From NCBI GenBank assembly GCA_017472965.1, contig JAFUNR010000004.1:62001-126000 (forward strand): a stretch of DNA of 64,000 bases, written 5' to 3'. Positions 3-10,963 of the stretch are shown here, piece by piece. Below the pieces are notes generated by a model, which saw only the letters and a program-made list of their open reading frames with translations, did not search any database and was not told the DNA's origin. A program made the position numbers and the translations under genes. This DNA is from Oscillospiraceae bacterium. GTDB lineage: Bacteria; Bacillota; Clostridia; Oscillospirales; Ruminococcaceae. Every line of letters begins with the position of its first letter. Positions within the stretch are counted from its first letter, which is position 1.

Positions 3-1721
3 GCCCGCAATGAGGATTTCGGCACCGAGGCCGAGATGCTGCAGGGCAATCTGGGCTATGTGGGCGCGACCTACGGCATGAACAACCAGCCGTACGATAA
101 CCCGCTCGCCCTTGGCATCCCCTACGAGATGAAGCCCCGGGGCGGCTGCGCCTCCAACCACGAGTTTCCATATTTCAAGCTGCAGTTTGAAAATGACGGC
201 GTTTTTACGGCAGTCGGCTGGCCGGGCCAGTGGCGCGCCGGCTTTCTGGCCGGTCGCGAGGGCGTGCGCCTGAGCATCGGACAGGAGTTTCTGGACACTA
301 TCCTGCACCCCGGCGAAAAGCTGCGTACCCCGCTGAACTGCTTTGTGCTGTATGATGGCTGCGATGCCGACCGTCAGGCCAACCTGTGGCGCCGCTTTAT
401 GATGGAGTGCAATATGCCACGCCGCAACGGGCAGCTGATGCAGCCGGCCACAGCCTCGCTGCCGGTGGGTACGGCTCTGATGGCCACCGCCACCGAGGAA
501 AACCAGCTGGCCCGCATCAAAGCGTATCGGGATAAGGGCATCCACTGGGATTACTGGTGGATGGATGCCGGCTGGTATACCATCGGCACCAACGGCGAGT
601 GCCCGCAGGAGCTGGATGACTACGGCTTCTCCGGCACATGGGAGCTGCGGGAAAAGGATTTCCCCACCCGCATGAAGGCGATCTCCGACTGTATGGCCGA
701 GACCGGCGGCGAGACCATTCTCTGGTTCGAGCCGGAGCGCTGCGGCCTTGAGCCGGATACCCTGCGGGATGACGGCACGACCCTGAAGAAGGAGTGGCTG
801 CTCAATTACCGGTGGGAGGTCTCCGTTCCCCGCAAGGACGGCAGTATGATGACCGTTCCCATGCAGATGGTCAATCTGGGAGATCCCGATTGCTATACAT
901 GGCTGCGCGACCGCATTTTCAAGGTCCTGCGTGAGGGCAACATCGGTCTTTACCGCGAGGATCACAACATCCGTCCGCTGGAATACTGGAAGCGTACCGA
1001 TGAGCCCGGGCGCATCGGCCTGACCGAGAACAAATACATCATCAACCATCTGCGCCTGTGGGATGATATCCGTGCCGAATTTGACGGGATGTTTATCGAC
1101 AGCTGCGCCTCCGGCGGCCGCCGCAACGATCTGGAAAGCATGCGCCGCGCCCTGCCGCTGCACCTGAGCGATTTCTTCAACTGGCGCTTCTCCTGCCGGC
1201 AGGCGGTGCAGCAGTCCATGTTTGCCTGGTTCCCGTATTTCAAGTCCTGGACAAAATTCATGGAGGAAAAGCTGGACGATACGCTGGAGTATCAGATGCG
1301 CACCTCCATGGCGCCGTTTACCAGCGTGCGTGTGGATTGTCTGGATATGACGGACGAAACCGCTGCATCCATCCGCACTTATCTGGATGAGTGGCGTGCG
1401 GTGTGCAACTATTATTACGCCGACTATTACCCGCTGCTGGACTGGAACTATGACGAGGGCCGCTGGATGGCGCATATGTTTGTGGATCCCGTCCGTCAGG
1501 AGGGCTTTGTGCAGGCGTATCGCCGTGAACTGAATGACGAGCCGCTGCGGTATATCCCGCTCAAGGGGCTGGAGCCTGAGGCGCTGTACGAATTTACCGC
1601 CGTGACGGCGGAGGGCGCAAATGTGCGGCTGACAGGCGCACAGGCGATGACAGAGGGTCTGCCGGTTTCGCTTTCGCAGCCGGCAAGCGCTGCGACGGTC
1701 AAGTTCACTGCGGTGGGATGA
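3..1721 (+). CDS. GH36-like alpha-galactosidase family glycosidase, 5' truncated by the window edge
   Basis: The reading frame is already open at base 3, so the true start lies upstream; the first internal Met is at base 36. The protein is a retaining alpha-glycosidase of the GH36/melibiase clan. Visible TIM-barrel landmarks are WMDAGWY, LWFEPERCG, LYREDHN and DSCASGGRRND. By family analogy the Asp of YREDHN (codon 960-962) is the nucleophile and the last Asp of GGRRND (codon 1128-1130) the acid/base. A beta-sandwich region with VGWPGQWRAGF precedes the barrel and a C-terminal beta domain follows. No signal peptide can be judged because the N-terminus is missing. It shares clan motifs with the fusion enzyme at 3361-5916. 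Exact substrate (alpha-galactoside or alpha-N-acetylgalactosaminide) cannot be told. Confidence 0.85.
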   Translation, partial: ARNEDFGTEAEMLQGNLGYVGATYGMNNQPYDNPLALGIPYEMKPRGGCASNHEFPYFKLQFENDGVFTAVGWPGQWRAGFLAGREGVRLSIGQEFLDTILHPGEKLRTPLNCFVLYDGCDADRQANLWRRFMMECNMPRRNGQLMQPATASLPVGTALMATATEENQLARIKAYRDKGIHWDYWWMDAGWYTIGTNGECPQELDDYGFSGTWELREKDFPTRMKAISDCMAETGGETILWFEPERCGLEPDTLRDDGTTLKKEWLLNYRWEVSVPRKDGSMMTVPMQMVNLGDPDCYTWLRDRIFKVLREGNIGLYREDHNIRPLEYWKRTDEPGRIGLTENKYIINHLRLWDDIRAEFDGMFIDSCASGGRRNDLESMRRALPLHLSDFFNWRFSCRQAVQQSMFAWFPYFKSWTKFMEEKLDDTLEYQMRTSMAPFTSVRVDCLDMTDETAASIRTYLDEWRAVCNYYYADYYPLLDWNYDEGRWMAHMFVDPVRQEGFVQAYRRELNDEPLRYIPLKGLEPEALYEFTAVTAEGANVRLTGAQAMTEGLPVSLSQPASAATVKFTAVG

Positions 1722-2338: not shown

Positions 2339-2455
2339 CGAAAAAACAGAAAGAACCGTATATTACAATTATAAATGCGTGTTGCCGTCGTCTTGAGCGG
2401 CGAAAGACGGCAGACGGCTGCCGCAGATTTGTCACAGCAGGAAAAGGAGTTTAGA

Positions 2456-3301
2456 ATGGCACTGTTTCGTTTCGGTTTCGATAAGCCGGGCCCCGGCGTG
2501 GAAAAGGACACCCCGCCGAAAAAAGGGCTCGCCCGTTGGTGGGAGGTGCTGGTTCGCGATTTTTTTGCGATCTTGCTGGGCAATATGGCGCTGATTATCT
2601 GCGGACTTCCACTGGCGGTATCCGTTCTTGTGTTCTGGACAAGCAGCGTGAAGGGCGCACCGTGGATGCCGGCGCTGCTGCTGAATCTGCTGTTCGCAGT
2701 GCCTGTCGGCCCCGCGCTGGCGGCGGTGCATCATCTGACCCTGCGTATGTGCAGGGATATACCGTTTTTCGCGTGGCATGAATTCAAAAAGGCATACCGG
2801 CAGAATTTCAAACAGGGCAGCATTGCGATGGTCGCGTTTGCGGCTGTGGGCAATGTGCTGCTTTTCAGTATGTGCCTGACATTCTGGACAGACGAAATCG
2901 GTCTTTCTTATATTGCCGTGCTGGCCGTGGGGGCTTATGTCTGGTTTTCGCTGATCAACACAGTGTTTCAGCAGATCGCACTGCTGGATAAGGATCTGCC
3001 CGGTATTTTTATGAACGGCGTACTGATGCTGTTTATGTCCGGCTGGCGCAGCGCTGCAGTGACTCTGGCGGATGTTGCCCTGCTGGTGCTTTTTGTTGAA
3101 AAAGGCTGGCTGCTTTTTCCGCTGGCTGTCATGGGGCTTTTCGGTGTAGCGATCATGACCGGTGATCTGGTGATGTATCCCCGTCTGGAACAGATATTCA
3201 TCAAAAAAGAAGAGCCTGCCGCACAGGAGCACCTTTCTGTCAAAGAGGAGTGGCAGCTGCTGGTGGATGCGGAGGAAAATCCTGCGGAAAAAAGGAAATG
3301 A
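2456..3301 (+). CDS. DUF624/YesL-like integral membrane protein
   Basis: The 281-residue protein has about five or six hydrophobic segments (roughly residues 38-65, 75-92, 118-138, 145-165, 190-235) and a charged C-terminal tail. Its layout, a basic N-terminus with RWWEVLVRDFF then several helices, matches the DUF624 (YesL) family often found with glycan-use genes. The start at 2456 was preferred to the upstream ATG at 2375 because AAAAGGAG lies 7 bases before it and homologous proteins begin close to a FxFDKPGPGV segment. It lies 59 bp upstream of the NlpC-GH36 fusion and may be cotranscribed with it. Its biochemical role is unknown; accessory roles in sugar transport have been suggested for the family. 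Confidence 0.75.
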   Translation: MALFRFGFDKPGPGVEKDTPPKKGLARWWEVLVRDFFAILLGNMALIICGLPLAVSVLVFWTSSVKGAPWMPALLLNLLFAVPVGPALAAVHHLTLRMCRDIPFFAWHEFKKAYRQNFKQGSIAMVAFAAVGNVLLFSMCLTFWTDEIGLSYIAVLAVGAYVWFSLINTVFQQIALLDKDLPGIFMNGVLMLFMSGWRSAAVTLADVALLVLFVEKGWLLFPLAVMGLFGVAIMTGDLVMYPRLEQIFIKKEEPAAQEHLSVKEEWQLLVDAEENPAEKRK

Positions 3302-3360
3302 AAAGGTGAGAAGAAGATGTCGGCCGGACCGATGATCCGTATTGCAAAGGAGGAGTAAAA

Positions 3361-5916
3361 ATGGAATTGCGTTACCGTTGCCGGATGCCTCAGCCCGAGG
3401 TGGGAGATCAGTGGTTTGACGATTTTGAAAAGGCAAAGAGCTGGGCGGATAAGAATGCACAGATCGGCTGCACCGTTTCGGATGCGGACGGCAGGCTGCT
3501 GTACAGCCCTGTGCGGGAGGGGATCGCGGATCTGCTGTATCATGCCAAGCAGGCCTGTGACTATTTCCGCGACAATGAATTCAATTACGGCGATGCGCCC
3601 ATCAATCCTGCCATCAATGATGATGCACGTCTTGTCAGCTGCGACCGTCTGGTCGGCTGCTGCCTGTACCGCTGGGGCTGGGTGGATCAGCCCTATCGTC
3701 AGGGACTGCGCGTGGCCTGTATGCGTTTTGCAAATTGGTGCGAGGAGCATGGCTTTGCCCTCGTCGACCGGGTGGAGGACCTGGAGCCCGGCGATATCTG
3801 CTTCCAGCGCTGGGATGCAAATCATATGCCGGCGCACGCCTATCTGTATGCCGGCAAGGGACCGGAGGAGGGGATGCACTACCGCTATGACGGCGGCAAC
3901 GTGAACCGCCTGCGCAGCACGCAGCCCTCCTGTGAGCCCATTCAGATGTTCCTGTTCGCTTACCGCCCCGTTGCGCCGGCGTATCCCGTCATGCCGCAGC
4001 TGTCCTTCCTGTATGACGGTGTTCCCTTTGCCGAGCTGGAGAAAAAGACCGAGACCACCGGAAACGGTGTGCTGTACACTCTGCCCGACGGCCTGCAGCT
4101 GGAATGCCGCATCACCTACCATGCAAAGCAGCGGGTCATTCAGTGGCACAACCACTGGCACAACCCCACCGATCATGAAAGCGGTCTGATCACCGATCTG
4201 TGGGATTGCGATGTCACGCTGCCCGTTGCGCCGGATGCTCCCCGTACCCGCCGCAACAAGCAATCCACATGGGAACCGCAAAGCACGCTGCTGTATGTGA
4301 CAAAGGGCTCCAATTCCAAAGAGGATGACGGCTTTATCGAGCCGGTTCGTCTGTGGGCGGGCGAAAGCAGACGGTATGCCTGCGAAAACGGCCGCAGCGC
4401 TATGGGTACCGCTCCCTATTTTGATATCAACCGTCAGCAGGACGGCTGGCTGCTGGGCGTTGGCTGGACAGGCCAGTGGAATGCGATTTTTGACCGGACA
4501 CAGGATGCGGTGCGGGTCCGCATCGGTATCGAGAACGCCGCCTTCCGTGTGCGCCCGGGCGAAAAATTCCGCACCGCGGGTGCTGCGCTGACAAACTACC
4601 TGCAGGGGCAGGATCAGGGGCACAACCGCTGGCGCTCCTTTATGAAGGAAATTTCACCGCTGAACAAGGGCAGAGGAGAGCACTGTCCCTTCAGCGCTTT
4701 GTTCTGGGGCAGTGTGCGCAGCGAGACCCTGATCGCCCGCTGGAAAGATTTTTTGAAAGAAAAGCTGCCCTTTGAGCTGTGCTGGGTGGATGCCGGCTGG
4801 TATCTGCCGCACACGGCGGCGGAAGAAAATCCCACCGAAAAATGGTGGGATGTGGGTGACTGGACGGTCAGCGGGGAATTCCATCCGGATCATTTCCGGG
4901 AGGTGTCCGCCTTCCTGCACGAAAACGGAAAAAAATTGATGCTGTGGGCTGCGCCGGAGCACGCCCGTCCGGATATTCTGGAGTGGATCCGCTGGCTGGA
5001 GGGCAGGGATCTGCACCCGCACTATCCCAATAAGCTGGTGGCGCTGTGCGATGACGAAGTGACCGATCAGGTGATCGAAAAGGTCTCCTCCCTGATCACG
5101 GAATGCGGTCTGGATGCCTACCGGCAGGATTTCTGCGTGATGCCGCTGGATTTCTGGCGCTCGAACGATGAGCCGGAGCGCGCCGGTATTACCGAGATCA
5201 GGCATATCAATAACCTGTACCGCTTCTGGGATACGCTGCTGCAGCGGTTCCCGCAGCTGCTGATCGACAACTGTGCCGGCGGCGGTCAGCGCAATGATAT
5301 CGAGATGCTTTCCCGCTCGGTATCGCTGTGGCGCAGCGACTACCAGTGCGTATGGGATTGCTGCCCCGAAGCGAACCAGAACCAGAATCAGTGTGCGGCG
5401 TGGTGGAATCCCTGCTCCGGCATCGGTTTCGGCCCCACGCTGGGCGATACCTATGCATGGCGCAGCGCCTATGCGCCGGGTCTTGCTGTGCGCAGCTGGG
5501 AGCTGGAGGGCGATGAATGGGATGTGGGGGCTGCCGGCGAACCGCTGGACTGGGCCCGAAAGCATTTCAATGAGTATCTGTCCGTCCGCGACCTGCTGGA
5601 AAAGGATTTCTATATGCTGCTGCCGCCCTCGAAGGAGAACACCGGCTGGTCGGTTTCACAGTATTATGACCATGATAACCACCGCGGCATGCTTCTGGCC
5701 TTCCGCCGTGCGCGCAGTCCGTATGCCTCGGCGCATGTGCAGCCAAAGGATTTTGAGCTGTATGCCTATTACGAATTCACCGATGCCGACACCGGCAAAA
5801 AGTTTATTCTGAACGGTACGGATATCAACCGGGAGGGTATGGATCTGCTCATTCCCGAACAGCGCCGGTCCATGCTGCTGACCTACCGCGCCCTGCTGCC
5901 GGGCATGCCCTACTGA
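3361..5916 (+). CDS. GH36-type glycosidase fused to an N-terminal NlpC/P60-like domain
   Basis: This 851-residue protein starts after a strong AAAGGAGGAG site. Residues about 50-200 look like an NlpC/P60 (papain-like) domain: a Cys in LVSCDRLVGCC (Cys94), a PGDICF turn, and a His in MPAHAYLYAGKG (His159), followed by HYRYDGGN. Residues about 205-420 form the beta-sandwich seen before GH36 barrels (GVGWTGQWNAIFD). The TIM barrel follows, with WVDAGWY, LWAAPEH, YRQDF (Asp590, likely nucleophile) and NCAGGGQRND (Asp646, likely acid/base). No signal peptide is visible, so it is probably cytoplasmic. The open frame is continuous across the domain junction. The GH36 part is firm; the NlpC/P60 call rests on pattern only. 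It follows a DUF624-like gene and precedes an RpiB-like gene. Confidence 0.85.
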   Translation: MELRYRCRMPQPEVGDQWFDDFEKAKSWADKNAQIGCTVSDADGRLLYSPVREGIADLLYHAKQACDYFRDNEFNYGDAPINPAINDDARLVSCDRLVGCCLYRWGWVDQPYRQGLRVACMRFANWCEEHGFALVDRVEDLEPGDICFQRWDANHMPAHAYLYAGKGPEEGMHYRYDGGNVNRLRSTQPSCEPIQMFLFAYRPVAPAYPVMPQLSFLYDGVPFAELEKKTETTGNGVLYTLPDGLQLECRITYHAKQRVIQWHNHWHNPTDHESGLITDLWDCDVTLPVAPDAPRTRRNKQSTWEPQSTLLYVTKGSNSKEDDGFIEPVRLWAGESRRYACENGRSAMGTAPYFDINRQQDGWLLGVGWTGQWNAIFDRTQDAVRVRIGIENAAFRVRPGEKFRTAGAALTNYLQGQDQGHNRWRSFMKEISPLNKGRGEHCPFSALFWGSVRSETLIARWKDFLKEKLPFELCWVDAGWYLPHTAAEENPTEKWWDVGDWTVSGEFHPDHFREVSAFLHENGKKLMLWAAPEHARPDILEWIRWLEGRDLHPHYPNKLVALCDDEVTDQVIEKVSSLITECGLDAYRQDFCVMPLDFWRSNDEPERAGITEIRHINNLYRFWDTLLQRFPQLLIDNCAGGGQRNDIEMLSRSVSLWRSDYQCVWDCCPEANQNQNQCAAWWNPCSGIGFGPTLGDTYAWRSAYAPGLAVRSWELEGDEWDVGAAGEPLDWARKHFNEYLSVRDLLEKDFYMLLPPSKENTGWSVSQYYDHDNHRGMLLAFRRARSPYASAHVQPKDFELYAYYEFTDADTGKKFILNGTDINREGMDLLIPEQRRSMLLTYRALLPGMPY

Positions 5917-6095: not shown

Positions 6096-6674
6096 ATGAA
6101 AACTGTCAAGGATAAATATCTGGTCGTCGGCGCCGATTTTGCCGGTTACCCTCTGAAGGAGGCCGTCTGTGCCCATCTGCGTGAAAAGGGCTGGAAGATC
6201 ACCGATCTGGGTGTCACCGCCGATTCCGATCCCGACAACGACACCGATCTGATGTTCCATCGCGTGGGTCTGCGCGTGGGCGCCGCCATTGCCGAGGGCG
6301 AATTTGAGCGTGCTCTGGTTTTCTGCGGCACCGGCATGGGCATCCACATCGCCGCATCCAAATGTCCCCATGTCCACGCCGGCGTGGTGGAAAGCGTTCC
6401 CGCCGCACTGCGTGCCATCACCGGCAACGGTGTCAACGTGCTTGCCATGGGCGCTTTCTATGTTGCTCCCGCTATGGGCTGCGACATTGCCGACGCCTAC
6501 CTGAATGCCGAGCTGGGCAGCGGCTATGAGTGGTGGCACAACTTCTATGAGTTCCACAAGCTGGCTATCGACGAGCTGGAGGCCTTTGACTACGAGGAGT
6601 ACAAGGCAAACGGCTTCAAGGTGAAGAAGCTGGGCGATTACCCCCTCAAGCTGGAGAAAAAGCCGGAGGAATAA
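6096..6674 (+). CDS. RpiB/LacA/LacB family sugar-phosphate isomerase
   Basis: The 192-residue protein belongs to the RpiB/LacAB fold, which interconverts aldose and ketose phosphates. Landmarks are VVGADFAGYPLK near the N-terminus, the anion-binding loop FCGTGMGIHIAASK (about residues 75-88), and NGVNVLAMGAFYVAP. It is longer than RpiB (about 150 residues) because of a C-terminal extension of about 45 acidic/basic residues. GGAAAAGGAG precedes the ATG. It has its own promoter and a terminator, so it is monocistronic. Substrate could be ribose-5-phosphate, galactose-6-phosphate, allose-6-phosphate or another pentose/hexose phosphate; the sequence does not decide. Confidence 0.85.
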   Translation: MKTVKDKYLVVGADFAGYPLKEAVCAHLREKGWKITDLGVTADSDPDNDTDLMFHRVGLRVGAAIAEGEFERALVFCGTGMGIHIAASKCPHVHAGVVESVPAALRAITGNGVNVLAMGAFYVAPAMGCDIADAYLNAELGSGYEWWHNFYEFHKLAIDELEAFDYEEYKANGFKVKKLGDYPLKLEKKPEE

Positions 6675-6791: not shown

Positions 6792-7796
6792 TCAGGCGAG
6801 GATCATTTTGGGGCGCATGGTCCGGGCGATCTCCACGGCGCGCTCCTCGGGCATCCCATCGCATGGCAGCAGGTAGATGATCTGATCCTCCCGCAGCCCC
6901 TGTGCATACAGCGCAAGCTCCTCGGAAGCACGGTCGTTCAGCTGGAAGCTTTTCAGGTTTTTCATTTTGGCAAAAAGCGGGATCAGGTGTCCGTGGCTGC
7001 CGCACAGATGGATCAGACCGCCGTGCGGGTATACGCCCAGAAGCTCGTCATCCAGCGGCATAATGAATTCCTCATACAGCGCCGGCGAGACCAGCTGCGT
7101 GGAACAGCCGCAGAGCTGGCCGTAGCCCGGCGGCTGGATGCGGCAGCCGCAGATCATCTGCAGCCGGTCGGCGGGGATATGCTCCCGGTACCACCGGTGC
7201 ATCTCGATCTGGATATCGGTGATGATGCGCAGGTCGTGCCGGGCCGCTTCCGGCTCCTCCAGCATGGCGATCAGAAACTCCGCGCCGTACAGATTGACCG
7301 CCACATTCAGCGGGCTGGCGATCACCGGCGGCACAAAGAAAACGCTCTTCACATCAAAGCTCAGGTAGGCCTCGGCGATCCGCATCGCCAGCTGCCAGGT
7401 CTCGTTTGCGGCAAGCTCCGGCTTTTGCAGGCTGCCGACCGGAGTTTTCAGGCAGCGGGTGTTCCACATACCGGTCTCCGGCTTGTAAAAAACATCCGCA
7501 CCGAAAACCTTATCCGTAAAATGTACGCCGTAGATCCAGTTCTCAATGGCCAGATGGTAAAAGATCGGCTCCTGCAGCGGCCGGCTGACCTGATCCGCCA
7601 GCGAGCACAGGGCTTCCTCCATGTATTTTTCCGGCTCGGTGTAGATGTCCGTCTCAGAAGCGCCAAATATGCGTCCGCCGATCTTCATCGGAGTCGGGTG
7701 CTGCGCTGTGCCGAAATCGCGCAGCTGCTGAAAGTTTTTCTCATAATAGGCAAGCAGTTCCGGTGCATTCAGTTTGCTTCGAATGGCTTCCTCCAT
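6792..7796 (-). CDS. URO-D superfamily protein with a MtaA-type zinc motif
   Basis: The 334-residue protein has the uroporphyrinogen decarboxylase fold, but the sequence resembles the corrinoid:CoM methyltransferase branch (MtaA/CmuA type) more than haem HemE. It keeps GGLIHLCGSH (His-x-Cys) and a later Cys in LLPCDGM, matching the zinc-binding His-x-Cys-xn-Cys pattern of that branch. QPPGYGQLCGCST is shared word for word with the paralogue at 17945-18988. AAGGAGAGA precedes the ATG. It is the second gene of an operon with a phosphodiesterase (56 bp gap). No corrinoid protein or haem gene is nearby, so its substrate is unknown. Confidence 0.8.
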   Translation of the reverse strand: MEEAIRSKLNAPELLAYYEKNFQQLRDFGTAQHPTPMKIGGRIFGASETDIYTEPEKYMEEALCSLADQVSRPLQEPIFYHLAIENWIYGVHFTDKVFGADVFYKPETGMWNTRCLKTPVGSLQKPELAANETWQLAMRIAEAYLSFDVKSVFFVPPVIASPLNVAVNLYGAEFLIAMLEEPEAARHDLRIITDIQIEMHRWYREHIPADRLQMICGCRIQPPGYGQLCGCSTQLVSPALYEEFIMPLDDELLGVYPHGGLIHLCGSHGHLIPLFAKMKNLKSFQLNDRASEELALYAQGLREDQIIYLLPCDGMPEERAVEIARTMRPKMILA

Positions 7797-8803: not shown

Positions 8804-9670
8804 TCACCGAAAAAAGCCGCCGCTGCGGTATTCCGTGGGGGTCATGCCGTAGCAGGCACGGAACTGTGCGGTAAAATGGCTGCTGTTGCGGTAGCCCACA
8901 GCGGCGCCGACCTCGCTCACAGGCAGCCCGGTGCCGGCAAGCAGCTCGCAGGCCCTCAGCAGCCGGTAGCGCTTCAGATATTCGTGCGGGGTGTAACCGG
9001 TTTTCTTCTGAAAGCTGCGGATGATCTGATTGACCGAAAGATAGTATTCGCCGCACAGCGCTTCCAGCGTCAGCCGGTCGGCATAGTGCTGCTGGATGTG
9101 CTGCCGGATCAGCTCCGCCGTTTTTGAGGAGGAGCCTTTTTCGTTTTCCGCATCGAAAAAGCATTCGCAGACCAGTCTGTGAAAAAGCTCCTGCAGCCAT
9201 GCACTGCGCTGGGGTTCCGTGGAGCTGCGGGAACAGCTCTCTTCATTCAACCGGCTGAAGCTCTGCCGGAAAAAATCCGGCTCGCGGCACAGATGCACCG
9301 CGCCGCCATCTGTCCAGATGCGCTGCGCAGCGGAAAAAACATCGCCGCCGGTCAGATTCAGCCAGTAAAATTCCCATTTACCCTCCCCGGTGTGAGCGGT
9401 GCCGTATTCGATGGCGGTGCCGGCCGGCACCGTGACAAGGGTATCCTGCGGCAGCTCCCATGTTTTTTCGCCGCTGCGTATCCATCCCCTGCCGCGCAGC
9501 GTAAAAATCATCAGCACGCAGGGAACGCCCTCGGGGTACCGCATGTGATAGGCACTGTTGCAGCAGTGCCAGCCTGCGGTGTGGCAGCAGGCAAGATGCC
9601 TTTCGGCATCGGCGGTGGGCAGATATTTCGCAATGCGTGCGATGCCGTAATAAGCATGCTCCAGTTCCAT
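8804..9670 (-). CDS. AraC family transcriptional regulator
   Basis: A 288-residue regulator with an N-terminal cupin-like sensing domain (residues about 20-140, with LRGRGWIRSGEKTW) and a C-terminal AraC double helix-turn-helix (last 100 residues, with LSVNQIIRSFQKKTGYTPHEYL and VGYRNSSHFTAQFR). A longer frame starts at 9712, but the promoter -10 box at 9732-9737 would put the transcript start only about 13 bases before that ATG; the ATG at 9670 has GGAGA upstream and is preferred. It is divergent from the URO-D-like gene at 9830 and upstream of the phosphodiesterase/URO-D operon, the two likely targets. Confidence 0.85.
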   Translation of the reverse strand: MELEHAYYGIARIAKYLPTADAERHLACCHTAGWHCCNSAYHMRYPEGVPCVLMIFTLRGRGWIRSGEKTWELPQDTLVTVPAGTAIEYGTAHTGEGKWEFYWLNLTGGDVFSAAQRIWTDGGAVHLCREPDFFRQSFSRLNEESCSRSSTEPQRSAWLQELFHRLVCECFFDAENEKGSSSKTAELIRQHIQQHYADRLTLEALCGEYYLSVNQIIRSFQKKTGYTPHEYLKRYRLLRACELLAGTGLPVSEVGAAVGYRNSSHFTAQFRACYGMTPTEYRSGGFFR

Positions 9671-9731
9671 TTTCTTCGCTTTCTCCGATACGGAATGTTC
9701 AAATATCACCATATAGTATCGTCATATTACC

Positions 9732-9829: not shown

Positions 9830-10963
9830 GTGAAATTGACATCCAGAGAGCGCATTATGCGTATATTCCGCAATCAGGAGACCGACCGCCCCGCCTTTAA
9901 GCTGTGGGGCGCGGAGTTCGGCAGCTATCCGCTGCTGCACAGGGATTATGAGCCCGTTGCCGCTCTGGCACAGGAAAACACCGATCTCTTCGGCGGCTGC
10001 GGCGGTTTTCCGGCCGATTTGATCACCGGCGCAAACAGGGGAAAATATGTGGAGCAGTGGGATGAGGACACCTCCAGGCCCACATGGAAGATCCGTCACA
10101 CCGTATATCATACGCCGCTGGGTGATCTGCACCAGCGGGAGAAGATCTCCACCATCGGCGAGCCGGGCTACACGCTGGAATACTGCGTCAAGGAGCCGGA
10201 GGATATCGAAAAGCTGCTTTCCATGGAATACACACCTTACCCGGTGGACAGAAGTGATTTCGATCTGCGGGAGCGCCGCCTCGGGGATAAGGGCGTGACC
10301 ATGATCAGCCTTCCGCATGCCGCCTACACCGCACAGACACTGATGGGCTCCGAAACGCTGGCGTACTTTTGCATCGATTACCGGCAGGAGCTTGCGCAGC
10401 TGATCGGTACCTATGCCGACCGCCGTCTGCAGCATACAAAACGGGTGCTCGACACCGGCGTGAAAGCGCCCTTTGCATGGGTCGGGCCGGAGCTTTTCCT
10501 GCCGCCGCTGGTGGGGCCAGAGGAATTCCGCGAATTCGTCTATGATTGCGACAAGCCGCTGTGCGATCTGATCCACGAGGCCGGCTGCCATGTCTGGGTA
10601 CACAGCCACGGCAGCGTGAACGATTTTATCGAAAGCTTCATCGGTATGGGCGTGGACGTACTGAATCCCATTGAGCCGGCAGGGAAGGGCGGCGACGTGC
10701 TTCTGGATGAAGTCGTGGCAAAGTTCGGTAACCGCATCGGCTGGGAGGGCAATATCGAGATCAAGGATATTCTGCTGGCTGACCCGCAGCAGCTGCGTGC
10801 GCTCATCGATGAATGCGTGCGCTGCGGCGCACCGTCCGGACGCTTCATCCTGTGCCCCTCGGCAGGCTTCAACGAGTATGTTGCGCCCACACAGCGCTAC
10901 ATCGAAAACCTGCGCCTGTATCTGACCTATGGTCTGGAAGCGGTGGAAAAATACCGCAGATGA
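9830..10963 (+). CDS. URO-D superfamily protein, second type
   Basis: A 377-residue URO-D-fold protein starting MKLTSRERIMRIF after AAAAAGGAGAG. It is more distant from the other two URO-D-like proteins in the window: the zinc motif region reads HVWVHSHGSV, with His rather than Cys, so the His-x-Cys pair is not kept, although a Cys remains in FILCPSAGF. The N-terminal RERIMRIFRNQETDRP is typical of URO-D family methyltransferase-like proteins (RxR..x(A/L)L..x..DRxP). It is divergent from an AraC regulator and is a single-gene unit with a terminator at 10971-11015. Reaction unknown; decarboxylase, methyltransferase or demethylase roles are all possible. Confidence 0.8.
   Translation: MKLTSRERIMRIFRNQETDRPAFKLWGAEFGSYPLLHRDYEPVAALAQENTDLFGGCGGFPADLITGANRGKYVEQWDEDTSRPTWKIRHTVYHTPLGDLHQREKISTIGEPGYTLEYCVKEPEDIEKLLSMEYTPYPVDRSDFDLRERRLGDKGVTMISLPHAAYTAQTLMGSETLAYFCIDYRQELAQLIGTYADRRLQHTKRVLDTGVKAPFAWVGPELFLPPLVGPEEFREFVYDCDKPLCDLIHEAGCHVWVHSHGSVNDFIESFIGMGVDVLNPIEPAGKGGDVLLDEVVAKFGNRIGWEGNIEIKDILLADPQQLRALIDECVRCGAPSGRFILCPSAGFNEYVAPTQRYIENLRLYLTYGLEAVEKYRR

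Follow-up and report, generated by a model that had tools for sequence, protein, structure and literature searches.

A fused gene with two enzyme-like halves

The window analysed here is a 64,000-nucleotide stretch of the genome of an Oscillospiraceae bacterium (GenBank assembly GCA_017472965.1, contig JAFUNR010000004.1, positions 62,001 to 126,000 of the forward strand). A gene at 3361..5916 of this window joins, within one reading frame, an N-terminal domain that resembles cysteine hydrolases to a glycoside hydrolase family 36 (GH36) part. As an initial annotation of this DNA had stated, the frame is uninterrupted: it opens with an ATG and runs for 851 codons without an internal stop. Because a good Shine-Dalgarno sequence, AAAGGAGGAGTAAAA (3346-3360), sits immediately 5' of this ATG, translation most likely starts at the N-terminal domain and not at the GH36 part. 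The gene and its parts are as follows.

3361..5916, + strand: fusion protein of 851 aa, cysteine-hydrolase-like N-terminal domain plus GH36 (open reading frame, Pfam, Shine-Dalgarno at 3346-3360)
3361..3510, + strand: small module, residues 1-50, of the type YxVR..GaF..leeAk..A...GYkVyD..Gn.vY.P, also present at the C-termini of other clostridial proteins
3511..3978, + strand: domain assigned to the NlpC/P60 superfamily, residues 51-206, with C94 (3640-3642), H159 (3835-3837) and D177 (3889-3891) (conservation, hhalign)
4000..5913, + strand: GH36 part, residues 214-851, with D590 and D646 on the catalytic Asp positions and with A478 and R588 in place of Asp and Lys (Pfam, alignments)

The Cys94/His159 pair and the motifs PGDICF (143-148) and AHAYLYAG (158-165) are present as first described. 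A Kyte-Doolittle scan of the whole chain found no hydrophobic stretch fit for a signal peptide or a membrane segment, the highest 19-residue mean being 0.29 within the first 68 aa and 0.76 over the whole fusion protein, in agreement with the earlier remark that no signal peptide is visible. The two halves of the gene are alike in composition, with GC and GC3 of 0.597 and 0.714 in one and 0.592 and 0.729 in the other.

Recurrence of this architecture in related genomes had been raised as a check, and it was found: the same fusion is encoded in two further Clostridia, G970 (locus L057, an 863-aa frame) and G1034 (L129, an 856-aa frame), and the two partners also occur as adjacent genes, as detailed below. 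Both of these proteins likewise lack a visible signal sequence, and each of the three fusions retains the Cys, His and Asp. Downstream of the fused gene in G970 lie genes for an SH3-domain lipoprotein and for a second, distant GH36. These copies bear on a further explanation, namely that the fusion is an artefact of assembly or frameshift, or a chance joining of adjacent genes, to which the state of the window genome (2.9 Mb in 63 contigs, 85% complete) lends some credence. Three genomes, from families f1 and f40, nevertheless share this architecture, a ribosome-binding site precedes the N-terminal domain and the halves match in composition; we regard this explanation as having virtually no chance of being right, and as already refuted, because independent copies of the fusion exist.

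A family of cysteine-hydrolase-like domains

To define the family to which the N-terminal domain belongs, we used a set of 35 members including that of the window, assembled after removal of duplicate, overlapping copies from any one locus and of matches at E>=1e-20 or spanning <=130 profile positions; alignment A4 holds 30 of the 35, having dropped L036, L075, L068, L021:47-694 and L023:2943-3503. Across the set, C94 is conserved in 34/35 members, and H159, D145 (of the GD motif) and D177 in all 35, which bears out the two residues first singled out and makes D177 a plausible third active-site residue beside them. Since full-length relatives exist (E 3.5e-37 within the same genus) and these residues are conserved, the domain is not a chance pattern. 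We propose that it has a papain-like fold in which C94 and H159 would be in contact.

Profile comparisons were then used to place the family, in hhalign runs with 34 of the 35 members (L036 dropped). Against 11 NLPC_P60 rows the probability was 94.4% and the score 50.9, with C94 aligned to the NlpC Cys and H159 to the NlpC His, while 20 column-shuffled profiles scored <=18.5 and one reversed profile 14.3; the NLPC_P60 profile was built from 11 of the 22 matches listed, one of which (L083) has no Cys. A comparison with eight Amidase_5-like rows gave 97.9% over 110 columns and a score of 85.1 (20 shuffles <=16.5), with D177 near, but out of register with, the Asp of these rows. This second comparison is not independent, because its eight rows are weak matches of the family's own profile; they were also chosen by hand, two of the eight pass the PF05382 cut-off, and two (L037 and L043) have no Cys. 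In all, 2/10 proteins scanned pass PF05382 (L037 and L040). Pfam NLPC_P60 matched 5/10 A2 members weakly (best 0.0069), the top scorer among members scanned being L028 with 22.0 bits for a cut-off of 23. Thus neither PF00877 (NLPC_P60) nor PF05257 (CHAP) was matched at its cut-off, by the window domain, which had no match, or by the members scanned, which had weak ones. Because its own match to these two families fails, the domain would be a separate family inside the superfamily: by profile, it is placed within the NlpC/P60 - CHAP - Amidase_5 superfamily and outside every curated family tested. Of the NlpC/P60-like label given at first, then, the superfamily relationship stands, with Cys and His conserved and in register, and Pfam membership does not.

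The family shares with NlpC/P60 (PF00877) the order of Cys, GD(I/L)xF and His, and differs in being longer and in carrying the additional conserved motifs YGDAxxNP, CDR, RYDxG, QPxxEP and FAYR. Amidase_5 (PF05382) and clostridial lysin-like proteins are the closest profile relatives found. However, seven of the eight Amidase_5-like rows are proteins of 188-251 aa, the eighth (L049) being 648 aa long with repeat domains, and none of the eight is fused to GH36, GH43 or GH106.

As a separate observation, the module of residues 1-50 (YRVRKS...GAF..LE.AK..A...GYKVYD..G..VYTP) closes several otherwise unrelated clostridial proteins: positions 3-48 of the family profile match the C-termini of L048, L055 and L056, and the copy in L055 has a SPOR match at E 6.4e-4 (20.4 bits, cut-off 21).

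The family is rare and patchy. Our genome searches scored part of the candidates in each genome (at most seven of 11 in the order search, for G577; eight in the class search for the Cys domain; ten in the phylum; three in the class search for GH36), and their copy numbers and absences are to be read as lower bounds. The window genome holds the domain in one copy and, across 297 genomes of its taxonomic family, it was otherwise found in G079, the one other member of the genus in the set, as a stand-alone protein of ~215 aa (E 3.5e-37). A match in G291 (E 4.2e-4) was rejected as chance, as it contains five in-frame stops and the sole frame of >60 aa covering it is on the opposite strand; a polysaccharide deacetylase gene adjoining the G079 copy was weighed as a clue and not used. 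Among 394 genomes of the order, G577 holds at least seven copies, and two weak matches are an SH3 plus NlpC/P60 protein by eye (L017) and a CHAP protein (L018). At the level of the class, 32 of 391 genomes match at E<=1e-4: nine, among them that of the window, are strong matches (E<1e-50), G979 stands at 1.1e-27 and the other 22 are weak. Within family f40 of the class the domain is present in 11/16 genomes, in up to 11 copies each. In a sample of 299 genomes of the phylum the window alone matched at E 1e-10 (0/298 others). A genome-contig scan with the whole protein gave 15 pattern matches, none of them confirmed, and one with a two-row profile gave 70, with two confirmed. In a Bacteroidales genome from horse faeces the domain occurs once, on a contig of 4,236 bp, and no other of the 164 genomes of its family has it; from this single case we infer transfer or misbinning. 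A phage origin was also considered and rejected, as phage records had no match and three viral-contig scans no confirmed one. In addition, we observed that two genomes of one genus, G922 and G761, carry 11 copies each with diverse partners, an expansion that suggests diversified substrates.

Members of the family are found in several other contexts. Two loci encode GH43-Cys fusions (G783 and G1036), and a Bacteroidales genome encodes a GH106-Cys fusion with a signal-peptide-like start (L025). Forms that appear by eye to be exported carry ricin-type lectin domains in G577 and G761, a dockerin in G577, CBM9-like modules with sub-cut-off Pfam matches in G761, and modules unmatched by Pfam in G577, G761, G922, G1032 and G1034 among others, the modules of G1032 and G1034 being judged by eye only; some other copies are short and stand-alone. 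Genes for GH28, GH127 and GH123 lie near family members, each in single loci. The family therefore often travels with carbohydrate-related modules, both inside and outside the cell. We also noted a type of lipoprotein with a conserved N-terminal region of ~240 aa and a terminal Cys domain (L059, L071, L034/L073, L075, L138 and L139), which occurs in five f40 genomes and one f77 genome; L059 and L075 were scanned and had no Pfam match.

These contexts bear on the possibility that the Cys head has kept an ancestral lysin job, cutting peptide bonds of imported muropeptides or fragments of wall glycopolymers while the GH36 removes sugars of foreign wall polymers. The closest superfamily relatives (Amidase_5, CHAP) are indeed lysin-like, and the first 50 residues resemble the C-terminal clostridial module with its one SPOR match just under cut-off. 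The fusion partners, on the other hand, are GH36, GH43 and GH106, with GH28, GH127 and GH123 nearby in single loci; no lysozyme or glucosaminidase match was found in the family members and neighbours scanned; and exported members bear lectin or dockerin modules, so that we consider a retained lysin function unlikely. A glycosidase and an NlpC/P60 peptidase do share one chain in CwlT, according to PMC6403190; CwlT, however, is described as a cell wall hydrolase with a lysozyme domain, whereas the window protein has a GH36 and no export signal.

Partnership with one GH36 clade

The C-terminal half matches Pfam Melibiase (PF02065) over residues 468-661 (E 1.7e-16, 60.6 bits, cut-off 27), and the barrel aligns with that of solved GH36 alpha-galactosidases (2xn0, AgaA/AgaB). 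D590 and D646 fall in register with both of the positions that we take to be the catalytic Asp residues of these enzymes, and the GH36 barrel with two catalytic Asp described at the outset is thereby upheld.

Outside the three fusions, the partners are found side by side. The order Cys gene, LamG lipoprotein gene, GH36 gene, all on one strand, occurs in G848, G783, G905, G1004, G1035 and G1036; the G1036 locus is contig C81, the end of which truncates the GH36, and the Cys gene of the G783 operon is itself the GH43-Cys fusion. LamG was assigned by Pfam in the two operon proteins tested (L074 and L072) and by similarity in the others. A phylogenetic analysis placed the GH36 parts from three fused and three split loci in one clade (support 98/99), within which identity is 48-63% in pairs with a fused member, while the identity of fused members to the other GH36s tested does not exceed 36%; the tree leaves open the branching order among the window, the two other fusions and the split forms. 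In a tree of the Cys domains (34 of the 35 members plus 12 further ones), the three fused domains form one clade (99/96) and the six operon domains another (99/93), with one further GH43 fusion inside. This pattern points to a single fusion event.

We then asked how tight the association is. By score, the GH36 clade comprises 11 loci, nine complete (>=989 bits) and two truncated at contig ends and comparable in bits per position; the tree included six of the 11. Nine of these 11 have a Cys domain, fused in three and adjacent in six. By comparison, among 12 GH36 genes that score just short of the clade (467-561 bits), some of whose neighbourhoods end at contig ends, two adjoin a Cys-domain gene, on the opposite strand (G1034 contig C1 and G1036 contig C54). 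In the class sample, where both searches covered 391 genomes and the GH36 search matched no additional genome, 7/7 genomes with the GH36 clade, spanning three families (f1, f40 and f77), fall among the nine with a strong Cys domain, a hypergeometric probability of 1.4e-13 that ignores kinship and uses thresholds chosen after the score gap had been seen. The Cys domain and one GH36 clade are therefore recurrent partners, fused or adjacent.

The two GH36-clade loci with no Cys domain near would be compatible with an N-terminal domain that is catalytically dead in the fusion and serves the GH36 as a binding or oligomerisation module. Pure binding would not need a triad, yet each of the three fusions retains Cys, His and Asp, and these residues are found, respectively, in 34/35, 35/35 and 35/35 members; we judge a dead module to be quite improbable.

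The sugar on which the GH36 half would act may differ from that of known alpha-galactosidases. The DDGW and KWD motifs of solved alpha-galactosidases are replaced in the fused GH36 by DAGW (D477-A478) and RQD (R588-Q589-D590), a change common to 6/6 aligned fused and operon GH36s. PMC11762096 names D346, D347 and K461 among active-site residues common to the Flavonifractor plautii galactosaminidase FpGalNase and the alpha-galactosidase 4FNT, and by our own mapping their counterparts in the window are D477, A478 and R588. Because two alpha-galactosidase active-site residues are replaced, the sugar is not fixed as alpha-galactosyl, and the removal of alpha-galactosyl-type sugars proposed in the initial annotation is not secured. 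The only NCBIfam match of the GH36 half is the BAD_1528 beta-L-arabinopyranosidase (NF053652), at 31.7 bits for an unmet cut-off of 1100; GH36 enzymes with this activity are described in PMC10688797. Five other GH36 genes were found in the window genome, three with DAGW and one (L014) with both DDGW and KWD, to which the fused GH36 is 22% identical. As a side observation, GH36s encoded at window positions 36-1721 and at L005, L009, L010 and L011 (G000 and G079) have DAGW and/or YR[EQ]D in place of DDGW/KWD, which makes the name alpha-galactosidase doubtful for them as well.

The altered active site also speaks in favour of a further alternative, in which the Cys head would be an esterase, deacylase or acyltransferase that removes an acyl group, or the N-acetyl of a hexosamine, before the GH36 cuts the sugar. 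LRAT, as its name says, has acyltransferase activity. LRAT-like enzymes belong to the same superfamily (PMC6403190), and a two-step route is known from F. plautii in which the deacetylase FpGalNAcDeAc acts first and the GH36 galactosaminidase FpGalNase second (PMC11762096). The same papers, however, describe the LRAT branch as circularly permuted, whereas Cys precedes His in the N-terminal domain, and FpGalNase as sharing D346, D347 and K461 with an alpha-galactosidase, two of which are replaced in the fused GH36. On balance a deacylase or acyltransferase head seems rather unlikely.

A proposed two-headed hydrolase and its surroundings

Taking these data together, we consider that the gene probably encodes a cytoplasmic two-headed hydrolase, both heads of which act on one imported glycoconjugate. 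The N-terminal domain would represent a papain-type cysteine hydrolase family of narrow distribution, so far without a name, with Cys94, His159 and Asp177 as its triad; descended from the lysin-like NlpC/P60 - CHAP - Amidase_5 superfamily, it would have been taken into service for carbohydrate utilisation. The C-terminal part would be a retaining glycosidase of GH36 type from an uncharacterised clade. Once the glycoconjugate has been imported into the cytoplasm, the GH36 half would release its terminal sugar; the bond that lies beside this sugar, or is masked by it, an amide or else an ester, would be cut by the Cys half. We infer from sequence and gene context that both heads are active, the Cys domain being catalytic, that its target bond is an amide, and that a single glycopeptide-like compound of plant or host origin serves as substrate for both. 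The two-headed cytoplasmic enzyme put forward at first is supported by the fusion and by the absence of an export signal, and the wall-derived glycan then named becomes one of several possible substrates.

A number of results weigh against this proposal of a two-headed enzyme. The 206-residue N-terminal domain of the window, searched alone, had no match in Pfam (E<=1), PHROGs (E<=1) or NCBIfam (E<=0.1). A single-sequence search of the PDB gave nothing significant (best E 0.89), and profile searches gave a C40 NlpC/P60 peptidase at a chance-level E of 0.54 with 10 sequences and nothing at E<=1 with 30. One member of the 35, L036, has Ser at the position of C94, the sole departure there in the set. 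The GH36 half, with DAGW and RQD, departs from alpha-galactosidases at two active-site residues. The strength of the partnership is itself tempered, because six of the nine positive loci built the GH36 profile, leaving an independent count of 3/5, and because the GH36-clade loci of G761 and G922 have no Cys domain near, though each of these genomes carries 11 copies elsewhere. Cellular location varies too, as the operon Cys gene of G848 is lipoprotein-like at its start by eye and those of G905 and G1004 are not. Finally, since many members are exported and tied to lectin or unassigned modules, it is possible that the role of the Cys domain is unrelated to glycosidases.

As to the substrate, the partner glycosidases (GH36, GH43 and GH106), with GH28, GH127 and GH123 nearby, fit plant cell-wall or glycoprotein glycans over peptidoglycan, a circumstantial argument that draws on what is known of these families. 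More tentatively, the domain could define a new intracellular family of cysteine amidases for glycoconjugates, coupled in gut Clostridia to GH36 (as a fusion or in the operon with the LamG lipoprotein gene) and to GH43 and, in one Bacteroidales genome, to GH106, in which one chain strips a sugar and opens the amide that it protected; such enzymes might act, for example, on glycopeptides of plant origin (hydroxyproline-rich or arabinogalactan), on those of mucin type or on N-acylated sugars. A parallel is FpGalNAcDeAc with FpGalNase, an amide-cleaving enzyme paired with a GH36; the natural enzymes are, however, separate proteins and two GH36 active-site residues differ from those of the fused GH36, while engineered fusions of the pair are reported to be more efficient (PMC11762096). 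Our searches of the open-access literature brought up PMC11288935, PMC9942572 and PMC6403190, and nothing in the portions covered reports a fusion of an NlpC/P60-like or papain-like domain with GH36, GH43 or GH106. The work adds an unannotated cysteine-hydrolase family that accompanies one specific glycosidase clade, whether as a fusion or as separate genes, and the partnership is a genomic hint of paired sugar and amide (or ester) cleavage in the use of gut fibre or glycoproteins. In addition, it draws attention to a GH36 clade that automatic annotation would link to plain alpha-galactose and for which the actual sugar may well be a different one.

The fused gene of G1034 has divergent neighbours (L129 1719-6333) that encode a GH127, a glycyl radical enzyme and the activase of the latter; no specific NCBIfam cut-off is passed by any of the three, and the activase alone passes a general (subfamily) one. 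The glycyl radical enzyme of this glycan locus is thus unassigned: its identification as hydroxyproline dehydratase, which would have favoured extensin as the substrate, was not supported (262.9 bits, cut-off 1100). The GH127 falls short of the cut-off for aceric acid hydrolase (321.7 bits, cut-off 950).

In the window itself, the fused gene is flanked by the following genes, the first of which is its possible operon partner.

2375..3301, + strand: DUF624 protein (PF04854, E 1.9e-8), directly upstream of the fused gene with a 59-bp gap
36..1721, + strand: another GH36, distant from the fused one at 29% identity (Pfam, identity comparison)
6096..6674, + strand: downstream sugar-phosphate isomerase of RpiB/LacAB type (Pfam PF02502; under NCBIfam cut-offs)

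Further downstream, the proteins encoded at 6792-7796 (- strand) and 9830-10963 (+ strand) have weak, sub-cut-off matches to methyltransferases of the methylcobalamin:coenzyme M type, and an AraC regulator is encoded near the fused gene, at 8804-9712.

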